64,000 bases of DNA, from NCBI RefSeq assembly GCF_021531055.1, contig NZ_JADYTL010000001.1, forward strand, positions 1 through 64,000, read 5' to 3'. Made by a program: the position numbers and the translations under genes. The DNA is from Collinsella tanakaei. Its GTDB lineage: Bacteria; Actinomycetota; Coriobacteriia; Coriobacteriales; Coriobacteriaceae. This document shows, piece by piece, positions 35,166 to 48,463 of this stretch. Position 1 is the stretch's first letter. Each line of letters starts with the position of its first letter. The notes under the pieces are model-generated. The model was not told where the DNA came from. It did no database searches and saw only the letters and a list, made by a program, of their open reading frames with translations.

Positions 35166-38100
35166 TTACGCCTTGCCCGCGCTTCGTCCCGTCGCATTTC
35201 CGAGTTCGCGGATCCAGGCGCAGGAGCGCTCGATGGCCTCCTCGTCGGCCTGCCACGACCAGTTGCCCTCGGTCGTGCCGGGGACGTTCATGCGCGCGTC
35301 GTCATCGAGCAGCAGCACGTCCTGCAGCGGCATCATGACCACATCGGCGGCGCTTTCGAAGGCGAGCTTGGCGATGTCCTTCGCGAGCTCGATCTGCTCG
35401 TCGGTCGTCTTGTCGGCCGCCCAGCGCGCCGACGTCCAGCCGACGAGCGTCGAGGTGTCGTGCGTCGAGGTGTAGACGATCTTCTCGGCACCGGGACGCA
35501 CGCCGTCGCGGATGTCGTAGTCCTCGAACTCGAGCACGTCCATGCCCGGGAAGCCGCAAGACGCCGTCAGGGCGCGTACCGCGGGCGTGAGGTAGCCCAG
35601 GTCCTCGGCGATGAAGGGGAGGGGTCCGAACTCGCGCTTGGCGCGCTCGAACAGCTCGATACCCGGTCCGGGCAGCCAGCGCCCGGCGCTGCCGTCCTTG
35701 CCGGCGGGGATGCTGAAGTACGACTGGAAGCCCAGGAAATGATCGAGGCGCACGCGGTCGTAGAGCGCCAACGACCGGCGGAGCCGTTCGATCCACCAGG
35801 TATAGCCGTCGGCGCGCATATGGTCCCACCGATAGGTGGGGTTGCCCCACACCTGGCCGGTCTCGGAGAACCGATCGGGCGGCGTGCCGGCGATCTCGGT
35901 CGGCATGCCGTATGCCGACAGCGAGAACATCTCAGGCTCGCTCCAGGCGTCGGCGGAGTCGTCGGAGACGTAGATGGGGATGTCGCCGATGATCTCGATG
36001 CCACGCTCGTGGGCATAGGCGAGCAGCTCGCGCCATTCGATATCGAAGCGGTACTGCGTGAACGCATGGAAGCGTCCGTTCTCGATGAAGCGGGCGTCAT
36101 CGAGGATGCGCACGTCGTAGTGGGCGTAGGCGCGCGGCCACCGGTGACGGCTGGCACCGCGGGAGGCGTCCTTGACGGCCATGAAGGCGCAGTACGGGTC
36201 GAGCCAGACCTCGTTGCGTTCGAGGAACGCGAGGTAGTCGGGGTCGTCTTCGCCGCCGCCGGCGAAGAAGTCCGCGAACTCGCCTCGCAGCTGGTCGGCA
36301 TCCTCCTCGAGCAGCGCCATGTTGCCGGCGAAGGCCGAGGGGCCCGCGTAGGGCGAGCCGTATGCGTCGGTCGGGTTGACCGGCAGGACCTGCCAGTAAC
36401 GGGCGCCCATGTCGACGAGGTGGTCGATGAAGCGCTTGGCGGGCTCACCGAGCGTGCCGGGACGATCCCCGTTGGGGACCGAGGTGATGTGGCATACGAC
36501 GCCCCAGCCGCGGTCGAGCGGCTTTTGGAGCCGTTCGACATCGTGGAAGTAGGCGACGGCGCTGCCGAGCGGCCATAGCGCCACCTCGGCCGTACCGTCA
36601 TCACGTCTGACCAGGTCGGCGCCGCCGATCACGTCGATACCCATCTCGCCCTCGAAGGGGATGGACACCACATGTCGCTTATCCAGGCTGCGGTTCACGA
36701 CGATGCTCGCACGCTGTCCGTCTTCGCCGCGCCTCGTGTACATGAGGACGTCGTCGTTCAAAGCGCGCGCCTCGATATCGCCGGTGACGAACAGCGGGAG
36801 CGTGCGACGCAGCGCCACCGTGTCGCGGACCATGTTGAAGAAGTCGGTGTCCTCGTGACCCCACGGATAGGTGGCGCGGTTGCCGGGGTCGGTCAGCCCC
36901 TGCACGCCGGCCTCGTCGCCGTAGTAGATGGACGGCACGCCGGCGAAGGTCATCTGGATGAGGGAGGCGAGCCAAAAGCGGCTCTTGGCGAGGCCGAGCG
37001 CATCGTCGGACAGGCGCCAGGACCCGCGCTGGTTCTCGGGGAGCGCGTCGATATCGGGAAGTCCGCCCAGCACCGAGACGATACGGGGACGATCGTGGCT
37101 GCCCAGCAGGTTGAGGGCGCAGAAGAGGGCCTCGCGCGGGTAGTTCTCGCGCAGCGACTCGATCGCCTCGGCGGCATGGTAGGCGGTGTAGCCGTCGTTC
37201 TCGCCGGTGAGCAGTCCGAGCACCATATCGCGGAAGGGATAGTTCATGGCCGAATCGAGCTGGTCGCCGAGCAGGTAGTGACGGAGCTTGCCGTAGGCGA
37301 TCTTGTTGGAGGCGTCCTCCCAGACCTCGCCGAGCACGAGCGCGTCGCTTTTCTCCGCGGTCGCGGCGGCCTTGATGCCGTCGAGCATCTCGTCGGAAAG
37401 CTCGTCGGCCACGTCGAGGCGCCAGCCGCGGGCACCGGCGCGCAGCCAGTAGCGGATCACGCCGTTGGGGCCCAAAATAAGGTCGTGGATCGCCTGGGAC
37501 TGCTGGTTCACCGCGGGCATGTTGCCCACACCCCACCAGCAATCGTAGGTGCCGTCGTCGTTGATGCGGAAGGCGTCGCGCCACTCGGAATCCTTGTCGC
37601 CCGACCAGGCGCCGGGCTCGGGATAGTTGCCGTACGCGTTGAAGTAGATCGAATCGCTGCCGGTGTGGTTGAACACGCCGTCGAGGATGATCGAGATGCC
37701 ATGCGCACGCGCGGTCGCGCAGAGCCTGCGGAAATCCTCCTCGGTGCCGAGGAGCTGATCGATCTTCATGTAATCGGCGGTGTCGTAGCGATGGTTGCTC
37801 GCCGCCTCGAAGATCGGGTTGAGGTAGATCGAGGTGATGCCCATCTCGGCGAGATGGGGGAGGTGCTCTTCGATGCCGCGGAGGGACCCGCCGTAGAAGT
37901 CCCAGCTTCGGATATCGCCGGTCTCGTCGCGGTCGTAGACGGGAGGTGTGCTCCAGTCCTCCACGATATGCTGGTTGCAGCCACGCCGCGGGTGCGCGAG
38001 GCGCTCGAGCGCGCGGGCTTTCCAATCCTCGTCGCGGGCGTAGCGGTCCGGGAAGATCTGGTAGACGATGCCGCGCTCGTACCACGTCGGGCGCTGGGCG

Positions 38101-38468
38101 CGATGCTTGTAGACCGAGATCTGGAACGACGGTACGTTGTCGTAATCGTAGGTGACGCCTTCGCCGCCCGTGGCGCCCTGGGGTGCGCCGACGCGGAGCT
38201 CGAAGCCGTCGTTCGTGCGGACGATGAAGTGGTACCAGACGATCTGGGGCTCGTCGAGGGAGATCTGTGCGGAGTACATGCCCTCGCCGTCACCGATCAG
38301 GGGGTAGAGCGTCTCACCGACGCCGTCTACCCACGTGCGGACCGTGCAGGTGATGCCGGCGGCATCCTCTTTGTAGACCTCGAGGGAAAGCGTCACGGTC
38401 GTTCCGACTTCGACCGCACCGAAGGGGGAGCGGAATCGGGGAAGCCTGCTGTTGTGACGAAGTTTCAT
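35166..38468 (-). CDS. Fused alpha-amylase/neopullulanase (GH13) and 4-alpha-glucanotransferase (GH77)
   Basis: The 1,100-residue protein joins two complete enzymes. Residues 1-115 resemble a CBM34-type starch-binding domain. Residues about 125-600 are a GH13 domain with catalytic Asp in RGWRLDVADE (about 349), Glu in VLGEVWED (about 380) and Asp in LLGSHDRPR (about 455). Residues about 650-1,090 are a GH77 amylomaltase with RLDHFLGF (Asp about 909), FIAEDLGYL (Glu about 953) and STHDTSTLVGW (Asp about 1,003). It has no signal peptide, so it acts in the cytoplasm, probably debranching or trimming maltodextrins and disproportionating the products for glycogen phosphorylase. The start has AAGGAAC. 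It is adjacent to the glycogen cluster but behind its own gap and the glgA terminator. Confidence 0.93.
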   Translation of the reverse strand: MKLRHNSRLPRFRSPFGAVEVGTTVTLSLEVYKEDAAGITCTVRTWVDGVGETLYPLIGDGEGMYSAQISLDEPQIVWYHFIVRTNDGFELRVGAPQGATGGEGVTYDYDNVPSFQISVYKHRAQRPTWYERGIVYQIFPDRYARDEDWKARALERLAHPRRGCNQHIVEDWSTPPVYDRDETGDIRSWDFYGGSLRGIEEHLPHLAEMGITSIYLNPIFEAASNHRYDTADYMKIDQLLGTEEDFRRLCATARAHGISIILDGVFNHTGSDSIYFNAYGNYPEPGAWSGDKDSEWRDAFRINDDGTYDCWWGVGNMPAVNQQSQAIHDLILGPNGVIRYWLRAGARGWRLDVADELSDEMLDGIKAAATAEKSDALVLGEVWEDASNKIAYGKLRHYLLGDQLDSAMNYPFRDMVLGLLTGENDGYTAYHAAEAIESLRENYPREALFCALNLLGSHDRPRIVSVLGGLPDIDALPENQRGSWRLSDDALGLAKSRFWLASLIQMTFAGVPSIYYGDEAGVQGLTDPGNRATYPWGHEDTDFFNMVRDTVALRRTLPLFVTGDIEARALNDDVLMYTRRGEDGQRASIVVNRSLDKRHVVSIPFEGEMGIDVIGGADLVRRDDGTAEVALWPLGSAVAYFHDVERLQKPLDRGWGVVCHITSVPNGDRPGTLGEPAKRFIDHLVDMGARYWQVLPVNPTDAYGSPYAGPSAFAGNMALLEEDADQLRGEFADFFAGGGEDDPDYLAFLERNEVWLDPYCAFMAVKDASRGASRHRWPRAYAHYDVRILDDARFIENGRFHAFTQYRFDIEWRELLAYAHERGIEIIGDIPIYVSDDSADAWSEPEMFSLSAYGMPTEIAGTPPDRFSETGQVWGNPTYRWDHMRADGYTWWIERLRRSLALYDRVRLDHFLGFQSYFSIPAGKDGSAGRWLPGPGIELFERAKREFGPLPFIAEDLGYLTPAVRALTASCGFPGMDVLEFEDYDIRDGVRPGAEKIVYTSTHDTSTLVGWTSARWAADKTTDEQIELAKDIAKLAFESAADVVMMPLQDVLLLDDDARMNVPGTTEGNWSWQADEEAIERSCAWIRELGNATGRSAGKA

Positions 38469-38681
38469 AGCGTGTTCCTTGCGTTATCGATACGCCCATC
38501 TCGGGGATGCACCCGAGTCGTCTGGGCGAAAGAGTCACATATCGGTGCAATTTTATCGTACTTGCGGGAACGATTACGGACCGTTGCCGACCAATTGCCG
38601 ATTTTTCGGATGGTATGAGGCTGTAATGGCAGCTCAAGAGCTGTTTGCAGGAAGCCTGTACGGGTTTTGGCCACCAAGAAA

Positions 38682-38711
38682 AACGGGGCGAGCCGTGAAG
38701 CTCGCCCCGTT
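38682..38711 (-). terminator. Terminator after glgA
   Basis: A 12-bp stem (AACGGGGCGAGC/GCTCGCCCCGTT) with a CGTGAA loop. On the minus strand it is followed by TTTTTCTTGG, 30 bases past the glgA stop. Confidence 0.85.
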
Positions 38712-38741
38712 TCGGACGTACTGTTTGCGAAGATGCGCGGC

Positions 38742-41087
38742 TTAGCGCTTCTTGCGCGTCGTCGTCTTGCGGGCGGCGGAGACGGTGGTCGCCTTCGGGG
38801 CGGCGGGCTTCTCCTCGGTCTCGGTCGCCTTGGCAGCGGTCGCCGGCTTGGCTGCCGTCGTCTTCGCGGTCGAGGCGGTCGCCTTGGCCGTCGTCTTCTT
38901 GGCGGCAGTCGCCTTCGTCGCCGTGGTCTTGGCGGCAGCGGTCTTGGTCGCGGTCGCCGTGGCTGCCGTCGTCTTCTCGGCGACTGCGGTCTCCTTCGCG
39001 GCGGCAGTCGCCTTGGTCGCGGTCGTCTTCGTCGCCGTGGTCTTGGTGGCAGCGGCCTTCGCGGAGGTCGTCTTGGTCGCGGTCGTCTTCGTCGCCTTGG
39101 CGGTCTTGGTCGCGGTCGCCTTGGCGGTCGCGGTCTTCGCCGCAGCCGTCTTGGTTGTCGTGGTTGCCTTCGTGGTCGTCTCGGCCTTCGCTGCAGTCGT
39201 CTCGGTAGCCGTTGCGGCCTTGGTCGAAGCGGCCTTGGCCGTCGTCTTGGAAGCGGCGGTCTTCGTAGCCGCGGCGGCCTTGGTGGCAGTCGACTTCGCA
39301 GCCGTGGTCTTCGCGGTCGTCGCCTTGGCGGCCGTGGACTTGGCGGTCGCGGTCTTGGCAGTCGCGGTCTTGGTCGCGGTCGTCTTCTTGGCTGCGGGCT
39401 TCTTGGCCGTGGCGGTCTTGGTCGCCTTGGTCGCGGCCTTCTTCGCCGCGGACTCGGCAGGTGCCGGCTCGGCCTTCGCGGGCGCGTCGTCAGCGGTCTT
39501 CACCGCGGCATCGGCAGCCTTGTCCTCATCGGCAGCGGCGGGCTTCTCCTCCGCCTTGGCGGGCTCGGCCTTGGGCTCGTCGTCGGTCGCCGGGGTCTCC
39601 GGCTCAGCCGCAAAAGGGACGTAGCGCTCGAGCTCGGGATGCAAGCCGTAGTAGAGGTCCATGTACTGGTCGGCGGAACGCGTCCAGCTGAAGTCCGCGG
39701 TCATCGCGTTGTCCACGAGCTTGTTCCACGCGTCCTTGTCGTCCCAGAAGGTGCGGGCCGCGCGGAAGACGGCATCGCCCATCTCGTCGCCGTTGAAGTG
39801 GGTGAAGGTGAAGCCCGTGCCCTCGCCGGTGAACATGTTGTAGGGGATGACGGTGTCCTTGAGGCCGCCGGTCTCGCGGACGATGGGCAGGGTGCCGTAG
39901 CGCATGGCGATCATCTGGGACAGACCGCAGGGCTCGAACAGCGACGGCATGAGGAACATGTCGGCGCCGGAGTACATGCGCTGCGAGAGGAACGGGTCGA
40001 ACTCGATGCGCGCGGCCATGCTGCCCGGATAGGTGCGCTCGAAGTAGCGCAGCGCCTCCTCGTACTCGGCATCGCCGGTGCCGAGCACGGCCACCTGGAC
40101 GCCGCCGGACAGGATGCGGTCGAGCGAGTAGGTGACGAGGTCCATACCCTTCTGGCGGGTGAGACGCGTGACCATGACCATGAGGGGACGGTCATCGCGG
40201 ACCTCGAGGCCCAGCTCGGCCTGAAGGGCGGCTTTGCACGCAGCCTTGCCGGAGCGGTCCTCGACCGTGTAGTTGGCGTGGATGCGGTCATCGGTCGCCG
40301 GGTCGTTGCGCTTGGTGTCCAGACCGTTCAGGATACCGGACAGGATGTTCTCGCGGCGACGGAGCACGCCGTCGAGGCCCTCGCCGAACTCCGGCGTGCG
40401 GATCTCCCACGCGTAGGTGGGGGAGACGGTCGTGATGGCGTCGGTGTAGTTCAGCGCGCCCTGCATGTAGTTGATGGAGCGCTCGTCGCAGCGCAGCTGA
40501 CGGACGGCCGGCTCGATGTGGGACAGGCCGAGCACGTCGCCGAGCAGCATGTCGGTGAACTGGCCCTGGAAGGCGATGTTGTGGATCGAGAAGACGGTCT
40601 TGACGTTCTGGTAGATCGGGTTGGCCATGTAGAACTCGCGCAGGAACACGGGGGCCATGGCGGTGTGCCAATCGTTGCAGTGGAGCACGTCGCACATAAA
40701 GCCGTCGGGCAGGTACTGCAGGCTCTCGCAGATGGCCTTGGAGAAGAAGGCGAAGCGCTCGCCGTCATCGAAGAAGCCGTACGGATAGCTGCGGTCGAAG
40801 TAGTGCTCGTTGTCCAGGAACAGGTAGGTGACGCCATCGTAGACCAGGCGCTCGAGGCCGCAGTACTCGTTGCGCCAACCCAGCGGCACGTAGAACTGGC
40901 CGACGTGCTCCATCTGGTCCTTATGGGTCTGCGCGATGGTGGAGTACTTCGGAACCATGACGATGACGTTGGCACCGGCGGCGACAAGGTAGGCGGGCAG
41001 CGAACCCGCGACGTCGCCCAGACCACCCGTCTTGACGAAGGGGGCCGCCTCGGCGCTCGCGAACACGACGTTAAGCTTTCTTGCCAT
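38742..41087 (-). CDS. glgA: Glycogen synthase with a histone-H1-like C-terminal tail
   Basis: Residues 1 to about 490 are a complete GT5 glycogen synthase that adds glucose from ADP-glucose. The ADP-glucose motif KTGGLGDVAGSLP lies at 19-31, and the C-terminal catalytic motif SLFEPCGLSQMIAMRYGTLP at about 382-401. The remaining 290 residues are low-complexity. About 60 acidic Ala/Glu/Asp-rich residues come first, then about 230 residues almost only of Ala, Thr and Lys (for example AAKKTTAKATASTAKTTAAK) ending RKTTTRKKR. This part is intrinsically disordered, strongly basic and resembles eukaryotic histone H1 or bacterial Hc1-like tails. Typical GlgA proteins have about 480 residues and no such tail. 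The frame is uninterrupted, so this is not a misread fusion. Start at ATG 41087 with AGGAGAG. Confidence 0.95.
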   Translation of the reverse strand: MARKLNVVFASAEAAPFVKTGGLGDVAGSLPAYLVAAGANVIVMVPKYSTIAQTHKDQMEHVGQFYVPLGWRNEYCGLERLVYDGVTYLFLDNEHYFDRSYPYGFFDDGERFAFFSKAICESLQYLPDGFMCDVLHCNDWHTAMAPVFLREFYMANPIYQNVKTVFSIHNIAFQGQFTDMLLGDVLGLSHIEPAVRQLRCDERSINYMQGALNYTDAITTVSPTYAWEIRTPEFGEGLDGVLRRRENILSGILNGLDTKRNDPATDDRIHANYTVEDRSGKAACKAALQAELGLEVRDDRPLMVMVTRLTRQKGMDLVTYSLDRILSGGVQVAVLGTGDAEYEEALRYFERTYPGSMAARIEFDPFLSQRMYSGADMFLMPSLFEPCGLSQMIAMRYGTLPIVRETGGLKDTVIPYNMFTGEGTGFTFTHFNGDEMGDAVFRAARTFWDDKDAWNKLVDNAMTADFSWTRSADQYMDLYYGLHPELERYVPFAAEPETPATDDEPKAEPAKAEEKPAAADEDKAADAAVKTADDAPAKAEPAPAESAAKKAATKATKTATAKKPAAKKTTATKTATAKTATAKSTAAKATTAKTTAAKSTATKAAAATKTAASKTTAKAASTKAATATETTAAKAETTTKATTTTKTAAAKTATAKATATKTAKATKTTATKTTSAKAAATKTTATKTTATKATAAAKETAVAEKTTAATATATKTAAAKTTATKATAAKKTTAKATASTAKTTAAKPATAAKATETEEKPAAPKATTVSAARKTTTRKKR
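38745..39440. repeat. Low-complexity coding repeat encoding the glgA basic tail
   Basis: The DNA is built of variants of GTCTTGGTCGCGGTCGCC and GTCGTCTTCGTCGCCG on the plus strand (Lys/Thr/Ala codons on the coding strand). Units are not exact, which suggests repeated slippage and drift. Length variation between strains is likely. Confidence 0.8.
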
Positions 41088-41127
41088 GGAAAATCTCTCC
41101 TGTTACTTCAGCGTTCAGTGGCAAAAT

Positions 41128-41153
41128 CGCCGCCCGGCGCGGGCCGGACGGCG
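41128..41153 (-). terminator. Terminator or attenuator between glgD and glgA
   Basis: An 11-bp stem with one mismatch (CGCCGCCCGGC/GCCGGACGGCG), followed on the minus strand by ATTTTGCC. It lies between the glgD stop and the glgA start, so it could reduce glgA expression relative to glgCD. Confidence 0.65.
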
Positions 41154-41212
41154 ATTCAATGATACCTCGAAATGCGCGAATGCGTGGCCGAGGGGTCATT
41201 TCGTAACGTTCG

Positions 41213-42322
41213 TTACGCGGTGATGGGCGCCTTTCCCACGGAGAGGATCGCATCGGGCGTACCGCGCAGCTCGGTGTTGGCGGGCACGACGTTGTTCTTG
41301 TCGATGATGGCGTTCTCGACGCGGGCGCCGGTCTTGATGTGGACGCCCTGCATGATGATGCTGTTCACGACGTTCGCGCCGGACTCGACGATGACGCCGC
41401 GGGACAGGATCGAGTTGCGGACCGTGCCCATGATCTCGCAGCCCGCGGAGATGCGCGAGTTGCAGGCGACCGAGCCGGCGGCGTACTTGGCCGGCGGCGC
41501 GTCGTGGGCCTTGGTGAGGATCGGGCGATCCTTATCGAAGAGCTGCTTGTTGATGACCGGATCGAGCATCTCCATGCTGCGCTGGTAGTAGGTGACCTCG
41601 TCGAACATGCCGACGGCGAGGCCCTTGAACTCGTAGCTGCACACATCGATACGCGCGAAGTCGCCGGCGATGGCCTCGAAGATGTCGAGGTAGTCGGCCG
41701 ACGCGTAGCGGTCGATGATCTTGAGGAGCAGCTCACGGTTGATGACGAAGCAGTCGACGAACTTGTTGTCGCCGTACTTGCAGCCCTCGCGGACCTGCTG
41801 GACGCGGCCGGCGTCGCCGATGACGAGCGAGCAGGCGTCCTCATGGTCGCGCTCGGCCTTGACGTAGACCATGGTGATGCCCACGCCGCTGGCCTCGTGC
41901 GCGTCGATGATGGCGTTCAGGTCCATGTTGAAGATGATGTTGGACCCCATGAGCACGACGTAGGGCTCCTTGGCACGCTGGAAGAGCGTCTTGTTGGAGA
42001 TGATGTCGCGCAGCAGGAAGCGCATGCCGGCCTTGGTGGTGCCGTAGGGGTTGCCGGGCAGCGGGAACAGGCCGCCGCGCTTGCGGTCGAGGCCCCAGTC
42101 CTTGCCGTGGCCGACGTGGTCGATGATGGAGCGGTAGTTACCCGGCATGACCAGACCGACCGTCTTGATGCCCGCGTTGGCCATGTTGGACAGCGGGAAG
42201 TCGATCAGGCGGTAGCGTCCCATGACGGGAACCGACGCGATGGGGCGGCTCTGCAGGAGGGTCTCCTGCTTGAGCGCCGTGTAGTTGGCTGTTATGTAAC
42301 CGATGGCCTTGTTGTTGATCAT
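41213..42322 (-). CDS. glgD: Glucose-1-phosphate adenylyltransferase subunit GlgD
   Basis: The 369-residue protein is homologous to GlgC but lacks the N-terminal Gly-rich pyrophosphorylase loop; it starts AIGYITANYTALKQETLLQ. It keeps PVMGRYRLIDFPLSNMANAG and the C-terminal left-handed beta-helix repeats. In Gram-positive bacteria GlgD is a non-catalytic partner that activates GlgC. The start lies 4 bases after the glgC stop with a GGGAAGGGGG site inside glgC, so the pair is translationally coupled. Confidence 0.93.
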   Translation of the reverse strand: MINNKAIGYITANYTALKQETLLQSRPIASVPVMGRYRLIDFPLSNMANAGIKTVGLVMPGNYRSIIDHVGHGKDWGLDRKRGGLFPLPGNPYGTTKAGMRFLLRDIISNKTLFQRAKEPYVVLMGSNIIFNMDLNAIIDAHEASGVGITMVYVKAERDHEDACSLVIGDAGRVQQVREGCKYGDNKFVDCFVINRELLLKIIDRYASADYLDIFEAIAGDFARIDVCSYEFKGLAVGMFDEVTYYQRSMEMLDPVINKQLFDKDRPILTKAHDAPPAKYAAGSVACNSRISAGCEIMGTVRNSILSRGVIVESGANVVNSIIMQGVHIKTGARVENAIIDKNNVVPANTELRGTPDAILSVGKAPITA

Positions 42323-42326
42323 CGGA

Positions 42327-43472
42327 TCATTCCCCCTTCCCGATGACGACGTCGTTTCCGACGACGGCGGTGTCCTTCTGCGTGTCGACGCTACCGAGCT
42401 TCACGCCCTCCTCGACGATGGCGTTTTCACCCAGGATGGCGCGGACCACATGGGCACCGCTCTTGACGACGGCGCCGGGAAGCAGGACGGAATCCTCGAC
42501 GACGGCACGCTCCTCGATCACGGCGTCCGTGGACAGGATGGAGTGGCGCGCGGTGCCGAAGATCTCGCAGCCGTTGGAGACCAGGCAGTCGTCGACGCGG
42601 CCGTTGGGGCCGATGTAGTGCGGCGGGCGCGTCGTGTCGTTGCTCATGATGGGCGCCGAGTTGTCGTAGATGTCGAACTCGGGGTTCTGGCCGAGCAGGC
42701 CCATGCTGGTCTCGTGGTAGCTCGCGATGGTGCCGACGTCCTTCCAGTACCCGTGGAACTTGTGGACGAACAGGCGCTTGCCGTCGGCGAGGGCCTTGGG
42801 GATGATGTCGCCGCCGAAGTCGTGGCTGGAGCGCTGATCGAGCGCGTCCTCCTCGAGCGCCTGGATCAGGAAGTCGGCGGTGAAGATGTAGATGCCCATG
42901 GACGCGAGGTTCGAATCGGGCTTCTCGGGCTTCTCGGTGAACTTGGTGATGCGGTCGTTGTCATCCGTGGTCAGGATGCCGAAGCGGCTCGCGTCCTCCC
43001 AAGGCACGGGCATGACGGCGATGGTGAGGTCCGCCCCGTTCTTGATGTGGTTGTCGAGCATCTCGCGGTAGTCCATGCGGTACAGCGCGTCACCGGACAG
43101 GATCAAGACGTACTCGGGGTCGTGCGACTTGATGTAGTCGAGGTTCTGCGTCACCGCGTCGGCGGTGCCGTTGTACCAGGCGCCGCCTTCCTGCGTGGCG
43201 TACGGCGGAAGGATGGACACGCCGCCACCGCGCTCGTCGAGATCCCACGAGGAACCCGATCCAAGGTACGCGTGCAGACGGTAGGGACGGTACTGCGTCA
43301 GAACGCCCACCGTGTCGATACCGGAGTTCGCGCAGTTCGACAGCGTAAAGTCGATGATCCTGTACTTGCCGCCGAACGAAACCGCCGGCTTGGCGATCTT
43401 GGATGTGAGCGCCCCCAATCTGCTTCCCTGTCCTCCTGCGAGGAGCATAGCGATGCATTCTTTTTTACTCAT
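42327..43472 (-). CDS. glgC: Glucose-1-phosphate adenylyltransferase catalytic subunit
   Basis: The 381-residue enzyme makes ADP-glucose, the donor for GlgA. The N-terminal motif [21 protein letters not shown] is complete up to its catalytic Arg/Lys region, followed by [15 protein letters not shown]. The glucose-1-phosphate site is near [12 protein letters not shown]-terminal hexapeptide repeats form a beta-helix. The start at 43472 (MSKKECIAM) has GAAGGAG; an upstream in-frame ATG at 43487 is less likely. It is coupled to glgD downstream. Confidence 0.95.
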
Positions 43473-43585
43473 CGAATTCTCCTTCATTGCCGTGCCGTTG
43501 CTAAAACCTTGCCTATCTATGCGATCGTCGGGCCGCGCACCCGTATGCCCCGAGACGCGCGGCCCGCTAAGGCCATCGGTGCGCG

Positions 43586-46015
43586 CTAGGCGTGCCAGAT
43601 CTCGTCGCGGTACTCGCGGATGGTGCGGTCGGACGAGAAGTGGCCGGAGTTGGCGATGTTCATGAGCGCCATCTTCTGCCAGGTGCGCGTGTCGTCGTAG
43701 ACCGCCGTGAGCTCGTCCCAGGCCTGGACGTAGCTCGCGAAGTCCGCGAGGACGAAGTCGTAGTCGTTGTTGTTCATGAGCTCTGCCTGGATGGACTCGA
43801 AGTTGCCGGACAGGCGGGCGAAGGTGCCGTCGACCAGCTGATCGACGCAGCGGCCCACGCCGTTGCGGTCGTTGTTGTAGACGTCCCAGGCGAAGTAGTT
43901 GCCGTGGCGCAGCGCCTCGACCTCGCTCTCCTTGAGACCGAAGATCTTCTCGTTCTCGAGGCCCGCGAGCTCGGCGATCTCGATGTTGGCGCCGTCGAGG
44001 GTGCCGAGGGTGATGGCGCCGTTCATCATAAGCTTCATGTTCGAGGTGCCCGACGCCTCCTTGCCGGCCGTCGAGATCTGCTCGGAGATATCGGTGGCGG
44101 GGTAGATGAGCTGGGCGTTGGAGACCGCGAAGTTGGGGATGAACGCGACCTTGATGTAGTCGTTCACGCGGTCGTCGTTGTTGATGACATCGGCCACGGA
44201 GTTGATGAGGCGGATGACCTCCTTGGCGAAGGTGTAGGCGCTCGCCGCCTTGCCCGAGAAGATGAACGAGGCCTTGTGGGGCTTGTAGTTGGGATCGTCA
44301 AGCATGCGGTTGTAGATGTGCATGACCTTGAAGATGTTGAGCAGCTGGCGCTTGTAGGCGTGGAAACGCTTCACCTGGACGTCGAAGATGGAGTCGACGT
44401 CGAGCTCGACGCCGCAGGTGCGCGAGACGTAGGCGGCCAGGCGCTTCTTGTTCTCCTGCTTGGCGGCGGCCAGGCCGTCCAAAAACTCGTTGTCGTCGAT
44501 GAAAGCCTCGAGGCGCTTGAGCTGCGAGGCGTCGCGGTACCACTCGTCGCCGATCTTGGATGTGATCAGGCGGGACAGCCAGGGGTTGGCGTTGCCCAGG
44601 AAGCGGCGGGGCGAGATGCCGTTGGTCTTGTTGTTGAACTTCTCGGGGGTGAGCTCGTAGAAGTCGTGGAGCGTGTCGCGCTTCAGGATGTCGGTGTGCA
44701 GCTGGGCCACGCCGTTGACGGAGTGCGAGCAGATGACCGAGAGGTTCGCCATGCGCACCTGGCCGTCCCATAGGATGGCGGTGTTGCGCAGCTTATCCTG
44801 CCAGTGGTCGATATCGCGCGGGAAGGACTCCATGAAGCGACGGTTGATCTCGTCGATGATCATGTAGACGCGCGGCAGCAGGCGACGGAACGTGTCGATG
44901 GGCCATTTCTCGAGCGCCTCGGGCAGGACGGTGTGGTTGGTGTAGGAGACCGAACGCGTGACGATGTCCCACGCGGTATCCCAATCCAGGCCCTCCTGGT
45001 CCATGAGCAGGCGCATGAGCTCGGCGCCGCACATGGCGGGATGGGTGTCGTTGGTGTGGATGGCGACGAGCTCGGGGAAGCGGTCCCACGCGTCGGTGCC
45101 GTAGTCGGCCTTGTAGGTGCGCAGGATCGAGGCCAGACCCGCGGCGACGAACAGGTACTCCTGCTTGAGGCGCAGGATACGGCCGTGCTCGCCGGCGTCG
45201 TTGGGGTACAGGATCTCCGAGATGGCCTCGGCGTCGGTGCGGAACTTGTTGGCCTTGGCGTAATCGCCCGCGTTGAACGCGTCGAGGTCGAAGTCGGCCG
45301 CCGCCGGCTCGGCGCTCCACAGGCGCAGGCGGTTCACGGTCTTGCCGCCGTAGCCGATGATGGGCACGTCGTAGGGGACCGCCTCGATGAGGTCGCCGCC
45401 CTCGACGTCGAAGCTGAAGGTGCCGTCCTCGTTGCCGTGGCGCACGACCTCGCCGCCGAAGCGTACGATCACGCGGCTCTCGGGATGCTTGGTCTCCCAC
45501 GGATAGCCCTTGGCGAGCCAGTTGTCGGTCACCTCGACCTGACGGCCGTCGCGGATCTCCTGCTTGAACAGGCCGTAGCGGTAACGCATGCCGTTGCCGA
45601 AGCCGAGGATCCCCTCGGCGGCCATGGAGTCGAGGAAGCACGCGGCGAGACGGCCGAGACCGCCGTTGCCCAGACCCGGGTCGCCCTCCTCCTGGAGCAG
45701 GTCGTCAAGATCGATGCCCATCTCGTCGAGGCCTTCCTCGACGATGTCGCGGATGCCGTAGTTGAGCAAGTAGTTGTCGAGCAGCGGACCCATGAGGAAC
45801 TCGAGCGAGAAATAGTAGACCTTCTTCTGGTCGCTCTTGCCGTTCTCGCTGTCCGACAGCGCGAACTGGCGATTGGCGCGCGAGGCGATCAGCTTGGCGA
45901 GGGCGCGGTAGCGCTCGCCGGATTTGGCGGCGTCGATGTCCTTTCCGACCTCGGCCATCAGCATCGCGCGGTAGTCGCGCTTGAAGTCCTCGGTCGTTTC
46001 GAAAATCTTCGTCAT
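43586..46015 (-). CDS. glgP: Glycogen phosphorylase
   Basis: The 809-residue enzyme releases glucose-1-phosphate from glycogen. The PLP-binding region [20 protein letters not shown] contains the conserved Lys (about residue 655). The N-terminal half has [16 protein letters not shown] and GMRYRYGLF. Length is normal (about 800-840). The start has AAAGGGGAG, and it follows glgB by 18 bases on the minus strand. Having degradation and synthesis genes in one cluster is common for glycogen operons. Confidence 0.96.
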
Positions 46016-46033: not shown

Positions 46034-48463
46034 TTAATCGGTTTGCTTCTTCGAGGTTGCCGTGCGCTTCGAGGAAGCCTTTCTGGTGGAAGCCGTCGTG
46101 GACTTCCGAGTGCCTTTCGGCGTCTTCGCGGCTTTGGCCGTGGAAGATGAGGTGGATGCCGTCGCCTTGGTCTTCTTGGCGGCAGCCGAGGTAGTCTTGG
46201 CGGTCTTCGATGTGGAGGACGAGGCCTTCTTGGCGGTCGTCTTCTTGGTCGTGGTCGCCGTGCCCGTGCCCGTCTTCTTGGCGCTCGCCGTGCGGCGCGT
46301 CGTCTTCTTGGGCTTGGGCGGCTTGTAGGAGCTCGGGCCCTGGCGCTTGAGGACGATGCCCGCAAGCGGAGGCACGAGGAGCTCGATGGAGTTGTCGAAC
46401 CCGTGCTTGGGTTCGGGATGGCTCGAAAGGACGTGGTCGTTGTGCTTGCCCGACCCGCCGAACGCCGGATCGTCGGTGTTGAAGATCTCGATGTAATCGC
46501 CCTCGCGCGGGACGCCCATCTCGAACGTCTCGTAGTACGCGGGGTCGAAGTTGATCAAGATCACGACGTCCTCGTCGGGGTTATCGCCGTGGCGCACGAA
46601 CGAGATGATGGACTGGTCGGAATCGTTAGGGTCGATCCACTCGAAGCCCTCGGGAACGTAGGCGCGCTCCCAGAAGGCGGGTTGATCGGTGTAGAGATGG
46701 TTGAGCGCCTCGATGAAGTGCTGGTGCTTGGCGTGCGTCTCGTACTGCTCGGTTAGGAACCACTGCACCGACTCGTAGTAGCGCCACTCGATGAACTGGG
46801 CGATCTCGTTGCCCATGAAGTTGAGCTTGGCGCCGGGATGCGTCATCTGGTAGAAGGCCAGCGTGCGCAGGCCCGCGAACTGACGCCACCAGTCGCCCGG
46901 CATGCGGCCGATCAGCGAGCACTTGCCGTGGACGACCTCGTCGTGCGACAGCGGCAGGATGAAGTTCTCCGAGAAGGCGTACATGATCGAGAACGTGAGC
47001 AGGTTGTGGTTGCCCGGACGCCAAGGGAAGTCGGTCTGCATGTAATGCAGGGTGTCGTTCATCCAGCCCATGTCCCACTTGTAGTTGAAGCCCAGGCCGC
47101 CGTCCTCGGGCGGATAGGTCACGAGCGGCCAGGCGGTGGACTCCTCGGCCATCATCATGACGTCGGGGAAGGCCTGCGCGACCGTGGTGTTGACGCGGCG
47201 GATGAAGTCGATGGCGTCGAGATCGCCCTCGTCACCGTACTTGTTGAACTTCTTCTGCGACGGATCGTCGACGCCGAAGTTGAGGTAGAGCATGCTCGAG
47301 ACGCCGTCCATACGGATGCCGTCGGCGTGGAACAGCTCGATCCAGAACAGCACGTTGGAGATCAGGAAGCTGCGGACCTCACCGCGGCCGAAGTCGAACT
47401 TGTGCGTGCCCCAGTTGGGATGGATCTCGCGCTCGTAGAGCATGTGTCCGTTGAAGGTGGCAAGCCCCTGGGCGTCGGCGCAAAAGCCGCCGGGCACCCA
47501 GTCGAGGATGACGCCGATGCCGGCGGCATGGCAGGCGTCGACGAAGTGCATGAACTGCTTGGGCTCACCGTAGCGCGACGTCACGGCGTAGTAGCCGGTG
47601 CCCTGGTAGCCCCACGAGCCGTCGAAGGGATGCTCCTGGACCGGCAGCACCTCGATGTGGGTGTAGCCCATCTTCTTGACGTAGTCGACCAGCTCGACGG
47701 ACAGATCGTCGTAGGTGTAGTAGCGGCCGCGCTGCGCGGGGAAGGGGTCCATCGGTCCAGGGTAGTTGCCGTTCTCGTCGGGGTCGCCCTGCGGTTCATC
47801 GCCGTGGCGGTTCCACGAGCCTAGATGGACCTCGTAGATGTTCAGGGGCTGCTTCATGTGGTCGCGACCCTTGCGCTCGCGCATGTAGTCGCCGTCGGCC
47901 CACTCGTAACCCGCGATGTCCATGAGGCGCGATGCGGTTCCCGGGACCTGCTCGCTGTAGAAGCCGTAGGGGTCGGCCTTATAGAGTAGCTTGCCCTCAT
48001 CGGTCTCGATGACGTACTTGTACAGATCGCCTTGAGAAAGACCCGGCACGAAGCCATGCCACAGGCCACCGGTGGGAAGCGGGCTCAGCGGGTTCGCATG
48101 CTCATCCCAGCCGTTGAAGTCGCCGACCACGTGGACGCTCTTGACGTCCGGGGCCCATACGCAGAAACGCCACCCCTCGACACCGTCTTGCGTGTCGGGG
48201 TGGGCGCCCATCTTCTCCCAGCTTCGGTTCCATGATCCCTGAGCGAAAAGATGGATGTCGTCTTCGGTGATGATCAGGCAGGGAGCCTCGGTCTCGGTCG
48301 AAGATGCCGCCTTCGTTGCGTCGAGCTCAGCACGTGTACGGTCCATCGCGTCCGTCCAATCGACATGGATGGTTTCGAGCCATCCGGAGTGGATATGCGG
48401 TTGCGGAACCGATTCCACCGGTGCCATGGCGCATCGGTGGGTCGAGAATACCGCAACATCCAT
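46034..48463 (-). CDS. glgB: 1,4-alpha-glucan branching enzyme with a basic low-complexity C-terminal tail
   Basis: The protein has an N-terminal extension, a CBM48 domain (about residues 85-200, with VVGDFNGWDEHANPL) and a GH13 branching core. Catalytic residues lie in GIRMDGVSSMLYLNFG, MMAEESTAWPLV and PLSHDEVVHGKCSL. The alpha-amylase C-domain ends at about residue 708 (AGIVLKRQ). The last 100 or so residues are rich in Lys, Thr, Ser and Ala (for example TKKTTAKKASSSTSKTAK), much like the GlgA tail. It creates alpha-1,6 branches. The start at 48463 lacks a clear ribosome site; ATG 48427 (MAPVESVPQ) is an alternative. It is the first gene of the glycogen cluster. Confidence 0.93.
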   Translation of the reverse strand: MDVAVFSTHRCAMAPVESVPQPHIHSGWLETIHVDWTDAMDRTRAELDATKAASSTETEAPCLIITEDDIHLFAQGSWNRSWEKMGAHPDTQDGVEGWRFCVWAPDVKSVHVVGDFNGWDEHANPLSPLPTGGLWHGFVPGLSQGDLYKYVIETDEGKLLYKADPYGFYSEQVPGTASRLMDIAGYEWADGDYMRERKGRDHMKQPLNIYEVHLGSWNRHGDEPQGDPDENGNYPGPMDPFPAQRGRYYTYDDLSVELVDYVKKMGYTHIEVLPVQEHPFDGSWGYQGTGYYAVTSRYGEPKQFMHFVDACHAAGIGVILDWVPGGFCADAQGLATFNGHMLYEREIHPNWGTHKFDFGRGEVRSFLISNVLFWIELFHADGIRMDGVSSMLYLNFGVDDPSQKKFNKYGDEGDLDAIDFIRRVNTTVAQAFPDVMMMAEESTAWPLVTYPPEDGGLGFNYKWDMGWMNDTLHYMQTDFPWRPGNHNLLTFSIMYAFSENFILPLSHDEVVHGKCSLIGRMPGDWWRQFAGLRTLAFYQMTHPGAKLNFMGNEIAQFIEWRYYESVQWFLTEQYETHAKHQHFIEALNHLYTDQPAFWERAYVPEGFEWIDPNDSDQSIISFVRHGDNPDEDVVILINFDPAYYETFEMGVPREGDYIEIFNTDDPAFGGSGKHNDHVLSSHPEPKHGFDNSIELLVPPLAGIVLKRQGPSSYKPPKPKKTTRRTASAKKTGTGTATTTKKTTAKKASSSTSKTAKTTSAAAKKTKATASTSSSTAKAAKTPKGTRKSTTASTRKASSKRTATSKKQTD

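Follow-up and report, generated by a model that had tools for sequence, protein, structure and literature searches.

Both polymer-building enzymes of the glycogen cluster in this Collinsella tanakaei genome, the branching enzyme GlgB and the glycogen synthase GlgA, end in a basic tail that is predicted to be disordered and is nearly exclusive to these two proteins, and the tails are actively preserved rather than neutral debris. We tentatively propose that they are polycation arms that may tie glycogen synthesis to a cellular polyanion, for which the DNA of the nucleoid is the most likely candidate. The window analysed here is a stretch of 64,000 bases, positions 1-64000 of contig C8, and the genome reconstructed from stretches comprises 2,231,183 bases (2.23 Mb).

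Tails of GlgB and GlgA in the glycogen cluster

The window contains a minus-strand run, glgB-glgP-glgC-glgD-glgA together with a GH13-GH77 protein, recognised with Pfam and NCBIfam. The features considered below are as follows.

46034..48463, minus strand: glgB, 1,4-alpha-glucan branching enzyme, 809 aa, with CBM48, GH13 and alpha-amylase C domains and then the tail (Pfam)
46037..46339, minus strand: C-terminal tail of GlgB, residues 709-809 (101 aa), net charge +27, predicted to be disordered (composition and AlphaFold)
46310..46333, minus strand: conserved SSYKPPKP motif opening the GlgB tail, residues 711-718 (family GlgB tails)
43586..46015, minus strand: glgP, glycogen phosphorylase, without tail, control (Pfam, NCBIfam, comparison with relatives)
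42327..43487, minus strand: glgC, ADP-glucose pyrophosphorylase, without tail, control (NCBIfam, comparison with relatives)
41213..42322, minus strand: glgD, ADP-glucose pyrophosphorylase subunit, without tail, control (NCBIfam, comparison with relatives)
38742..41087, minus strand: glgA, glycogen synthase (ADP-glucose type), 781 aa (PRK00654 equivalog over its cut-off, residues 5-481)
39453..39635, minus strand: first part of the GlgA tail, acidic to neutral, about residues 485-545 (sequence)
38745..39452, minus strand: basic Lys/Ala/Thr part of the GlgA tail, residues 546-781, with a five-residue Lys period (composition and pLDDT)
38745..38786, minus strand: conserved basic C-terminal end TVSAARKTTTRKKR of GlgA, residues 768-781 (family GlgA tails)

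In GlgB, which was assigned by Pfam and by NCBIfam PRK12313/PRK05402 over cut-off, the Pfam Alpha-amylase_C domain stops at residue 707 and the stop codon lies at 46034-46036, confirming the tail of about 100 Lys, Thr, Ser and Ala residues that the initial annotation had placed after this domain. The tail contains 23 Lys, 27 Thr, 17 Ser, 17 Ala, 5 Arg and 5 Pro residues, with one Asp and no Glu. AlphaFold assigns no secondary structure to residues 721-809, at a pLDDT of 25-43, and gives a pLDDT of 76 for the block 711-720 around SSYKPPKP, a motif that occurs once in the host proteome and whose SSYxPP-type form opens the majority of the 59 family GlgB tails. That the tails are self-glucosylated primers in the manner of glycogenin, or other modification sites, is exceedingly improbable: in the window, Thr and Ser do account for 44% of residues in the GlgB tail and for 30% in that of GlgA, but the fraction falls to about 15% in many family GlgB tails with the charge retained, and among the Ala/Lys-rich GlgB tails of Atopobiaceae several are poor in Thr.

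Atopobiaceae-type GlgB tails terminate in a helix-like repeat that is well conserved, K[AK][RK]RSAAAKKAAATR[RK]ANAAKKAAE-like, and unlike the remaining tail (loci L213, L217, L219-L221, L226, L227, L229 and L237). In-frame TGA codons were seen in otherwise good GlgB frames at G089:C21:39873-41882 (two codons) and G111:C1:154596-156653 (one codon), and may stem from errors of assembly, from gene decay or from an effect of the start site.

The glycogen synthase domain of GlgA ends at about residue 482 and is followed by a tail of 297 residues (485-781) with a net charge of +33, containing 104 Ala, 82 Thr and 54 Lys residues along with 18 Glu and 7 Asp. Its first third is negative or neutral and the sequence is positive thereafter; across 47 family GlgA tails the first third has a median net charge of -2. 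Intervals of five residues account for 24 of the 57 Lys/Arg spacings. For residues 501-781 AlphaFold predicts no secondary structure, and pLDDT is below 50 for all residues but one. The majority of tailed GlgA proteins finish in a [ST]VSAARKTTxRKxR-type or KKTSVRKATATRKRR ending, and the last 20 residues carry a net charge of at least +5 in 47 of 47 family tails. The GlgB tail shows neither the five-residue Lys/Arg period nor the acidic first part, so that the two tails, described initially as matching, belong to the same basic and disordered class and differ in sequence.

GlgP, GlgC and GlgD end where the homology of their relatives ends, with extensions of only 0-7 aa in the Collinsella relatives, which bears out the earlier statement that they are untailed. 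The accompanying proposal, that the tails separate polymer-touching enzymes from those acting on soluble substrates, stands insofar as both polymer-building enzymes are tailed; GlgP touches the polymer yet lacks a tail, and the division is therefore one between synthesis and the rest.

A protein of 1100 aa (35166-38468, minus strand) combines a GH13 domain of the amylase type with a GH77 4-alpha-glucanotransferase and is a good match to the PRK14510-type bifunctional model, at a score below that model's cut-off. On the opposite strand a spurious antisense frame of 831 aa (38667-41162, plus strand) runs across glgA and exceeds it in length; it is favoured by the GC-rich repetitive tail, and gene callers may choose the wrong strand here.

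Rarity of the tails and selection on their charge

A greedy ORF census made without regard to Lys was flooded by spurious GC-rich frames, with glgA displaced by its antisense ORF, and was replaced by a Lys-based census covering the proteome of the host genome; relatives were covered as about 80 glg loci. Under a strict criterion (a 50-residue window with at least 8 Lys and at least 37 Lys, Ala, Thr, Ser and Pro residues combined) the whole reconstructed genome yields four proteins: GlgA, GlgB, topoisomerase I (TopA) at its C-terminus and SecE at its N-terminus. A looser criterion adds four weaker cases, namely YgiQ-like radical-SAM, bL31-like, ferredoxin-type and ATPase-like proteins; these four, SecE and TopA were identified by eye from sequence. 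The Lys-rich disordered ends lie in the following host genes.

G000 C11:136878-139457: TopA
G000 C10:77694-78110: SecE
G000 C9:234380-234808: bL31-like protein
G000 C9:196186-198333: YgiQ-like radical-SAM protein
G000 C12:77161-77661: ferredoxin-type protein

The codon signature for KK[ATS]3K is found in the host genome only in TopA, GlgA, SecE and GlgB, and searches with the same codon pattern in relatives return few places per genome. In 80 glg loci of relatives, with up to 10 kb of flanking sequence at either end, no such basic segments were found outside GlgB and GlgA, unlabelled rows in that search being GlgB frames as judged by sequence. Tails of this kind on many unrelated proteins had been named at the outset as a sign of neutral expansion; in the host proteome only TopA and SecE are comparable. 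The segments most similar to the Glg tails are those of TopA, which bears a KKTAAKKTTKK tail.

The host genome also encodes the polyphosphate kinase PPK1, which makes polyphosphate another possible polyanion and counts against DNA as the partner. Polyphosphate, or RNA and ribosomes, might thus be what the tails meet, by co-assembly with polyphosphate granules or condensation with RNA. AlgP, whose tail is similar, localises to polyphosphate granules and spaces them, and the bL31-like protein and SecE are among the other Lys-rich low-complexity proteins here. We nevertheless consider this unlikely, as no PPK2 was found in the host genome and the most similar segments belong to TopA, in which the lysine tail has an established action on DNA.

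Selection was examined in a C. aerofaciens-like group of 17 GlgB and 18 GlgA sequences. The dN/dS ratio is 0.34 for the GlgB tail and 0.24 for the GlgA tail, as against 0.03-0.04 for the cores. Identity reaches 96.0% (GlgB) and 97.9% (GlgA) in columns with a Lys/Arg majority, compared with 82.5% and 85.1% in Ala/Thr/Ser/Pro columns. Since about 7.6 of the 9 neighbours of a Lys/Arg codon are non-synonymous, against about 6.0 of 9 for Ala/Thr/Ser/Pro codons, the Lys/Arg columns are better kept despite a greater opportunity for replacement, and the charge is under selection. Throughout the family, net charge is positive in 59 of 59 GlgB tails (+3 to +31) and in 47 of 47 GlgA tails (+5 to +46), over lengths of 16-140 and 100-464 residues, respectively. 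In one genome (G058) most Lys residues of the tail have been replaced and the charge is still positive, and in G001 and G003 the basic tail is of ordinary rather than low complexity, so that the conserved trait is positive charge and not lysine or repeats.

Two explanations that dispense with a specific partner bear on these data. Repeat expansion in a GC-rich genome, whether neutral or driven by slippage, could account for the imperfect tandem repeats in the DNA of the GlgA tail and for the differences in its length among close species (about 219-308 aa within a single group). It should leave the tails without constraint and place them on many unrelated proteins, and neither is found: nearly all other proteins are without a tail, synonymous codons are mixed within both tails, and a dN/dS well below 1 together with near-invariant Lys/Arg columns led us to reject an explanation that is now largely refuted and very unlikely. 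Alternatively, the tails may act by colloidal stabilisation, as a charged brush by which glycogen particles or the enzymes stay in solution and separate. Charge and disorder are kept while sequence and length drift, as such a brush would have it, and surface charge has been named as an alternative for AlgP as well; either sign would serve, yet every GlgB tail is positive, and the conserved end of GlgA and the SSYxPP start of GlgB suggest more than bulk charge. On balance a brush does not seem likely. The near-exclusivity to GlgA and GlgB, combined with selection for charge, makes a shared function of the basic tails likely.

Distribution and order of appearance

Distribution was followed on a tree built on GlgP and GlgC with 77 rows, of which 34 carry both tails, 27 the GlgB tail only and 13 neither, with 3 having a GlgA tail and a short GlgB end. 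A basic GlgB end is present in every family genome in which that end is readable, and a GlgA tail in all readable family genomes except those of genus g2 (G001-G004). In Atopobiaceae GlgB is tailed and the GlgA open frames are mostly of about 500 aa. Among the glycogen-making Coriobacteriales examined, the GlgB tail is nearly universal; clostridial relatives are mostly untailed, one row (L245) having a short GlgA tail. The tree requires four changes for the GlgA tail and seven for the GlgB tail, counts that do not by themselves separate gain from loss, which was judged from the tree pattern. Read in this way, the GlgA tail is a later addition than the GlgB tail and was gained at least twice, once in Coriobacteriaceae (where g2 lacks it) and separately in the lineage of L214 and L218.

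The rows with a GlgB tail alone show that the tails are nested and not obligatorily paired, and the Atopobiaceae and genus g2 show that the GlgB tail is independent of a GlgA partner. An obligate GlgA-GlgB module, with tails always together, was rejected on these 27 of 77 rows. Of the co-recruitment proposed in the initial annotation, which was to be refuted by tails occurring independently, a likely shared function survives; obligate pairing does not, and independence holds in part, for GlgB in the two groups just named. It is quite unlikely that the tails gather GlgA and GlgB on one protein scaffold, as first suggested, or on each other, with the acidic part of GlgA set against basic GlgB. 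A basic GlgB tail does accompany the basic GlgA tail in 34 of 37 rows, and the lengths of the two tails show a weak correlation (Spearman 0.38-0.40, p about 0.008-0.009, uncorrected for relatedness); set against this are the rows lacking a GlgA tail and a search of the glg loci, for basic segments only, that found no tailed scaffold gene. A comparison of co-occurrence over independent pairs comprised only 4 pairs.

Away from the locus examined, Atopobiaceae genomes such as G150, G200, G204, G208 and G181 encode a second GlgA (about 44% identical) and a second GlgB (about 42%), which suggests a second glycogen operon.

A possible link to the nucleoid and comparison with known systems

Two features of a nucleoid tether are found here, a polymer-binding domain (CBM48 and GH13 in GlgB, GT5 in GlgA; Pfam/NCBIfam) and a strongly basic, disordered, Lys/Ala-rich arm (composition, AlphaFold). 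The enzyme cores would hold the glucan, a binding that we take to be theirs from what is known of the families. Charge cannot hold a neutral glucan, and the tail must therefore have some other, anionic partner. We infer that the arm would bind, irrespective of sequence, to a polyanion of the cell, with nucleoid DNA as the likeliest one, and that glycogen particles held in this way could stay dispersed along the chromosome and be shared between daughter cells, much as PhaF, PhaM and AlgP act on PHB and polyphosphate granules. GlgB would carry the older, basic arm; the arm acquired later by GlgA would be longer, include an acidic spacer and increase the valency.

Through Lys-rich domains that are disordered or histone-like, PhaF and PhaM anchor PHB granules, and AlgP polyphosphate granules, to the nucleoid. 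The lysine repeats of actinobacterial TopA stabilise DNA binding (PMC7398561), and prokaryotic Lys-rich low-complexity regions are enriched in DNA-binding proteins (PMC6821194). In E. coli an untailed GlgA, seen as GlgA-GFP, collects at the old poles, as does glycogen, which when over-accumulated excludes the chromosome there and shortens replicative lifespan (PMC4836754); a tether would remedy this. These parallels place the nucleoid tether first among the readings considered. Weighing against it are the separability of the tails in evolution, the differences between GlgA and GlgB tails in composition and spacing, including the acidic first part of GlgA, and the hydrophilic nature and small size of glycogen particles, for which a PHB-type partition may be unneeded.

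It is possible, though doubtful, that glycogen partition in Coriobacteriia is built into the biosynthetic enzymes themselves, with histone-like arms of GlgB and later GlgA holding particles on the nucleoid; the glycogen store would then be distributed and passed on together with the chromosome. PHB, polyphosphate, carboxysomes and magnetosomes all have known positioning systems, and glycogen goes unmentioned in a 2025 review of how bacteria position their organelles. A 2024 review states that bacterial glycogen contains no protein by which its particles would be clustered, and the accessible text of a large review of prokaryotic alpha-glucan enzymes mentions neither the nucleoid, nor Coriobacteria, nor disorder. 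A literature search, with most subscription papers outside it, found no report of a tailed bacterial GlgA or GlgB or of nucleoid-bound glycogen. With selected polycation arms present in much of a bacterial order, the way in which bacteria place and share out glycogen becomes directly testable.

Arms of this type are known, but not from enzymes that synthesise a hydrophilic storage polymer. PhaF of Pseudomonas, a phasin of PHB/PHA granules whose C-terminal domain resembles histone H1, is likewise bound to a storage granule and has a disordered, Lys-rich tail made up of repeats four and five residues long; it is the phasin of a hydrophobic polyester, whereas the Coriobacterial arm sits on the enzymes that build a hydrophilic glucan and would bind DNA only by inference. 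No Pfam PF05597 phasin domain was found in GlgA or GlgB, and the rest of the genome gave only a sub-cut-off match. PhaM of Ralstonia/Cupriavidus similarly links the biosynthesis of a carbon store, through PhaC, to the nucleoid by a histone-like domain, but is a separate protein, whereas the arm here belongs to GlgB and GlgA. AlgP of P. aeruginosa, which acts in the spacing of polyphosphate granules, has a long, disordered and strongly positive KPAA/KTAAA tail whose repeats the Lys spacing of 4-5 in GlgA resembles; it differs in its proline-rich exact repeats, its helical N-terminal domain and its target. Actinobacterial TopA carries an H1-like Lys-rich C-terminal tail, present in the host genome in a Lys/Ala/Thr version, but there the arm sits on a DNA enzyme and raises its processivity on DNA.
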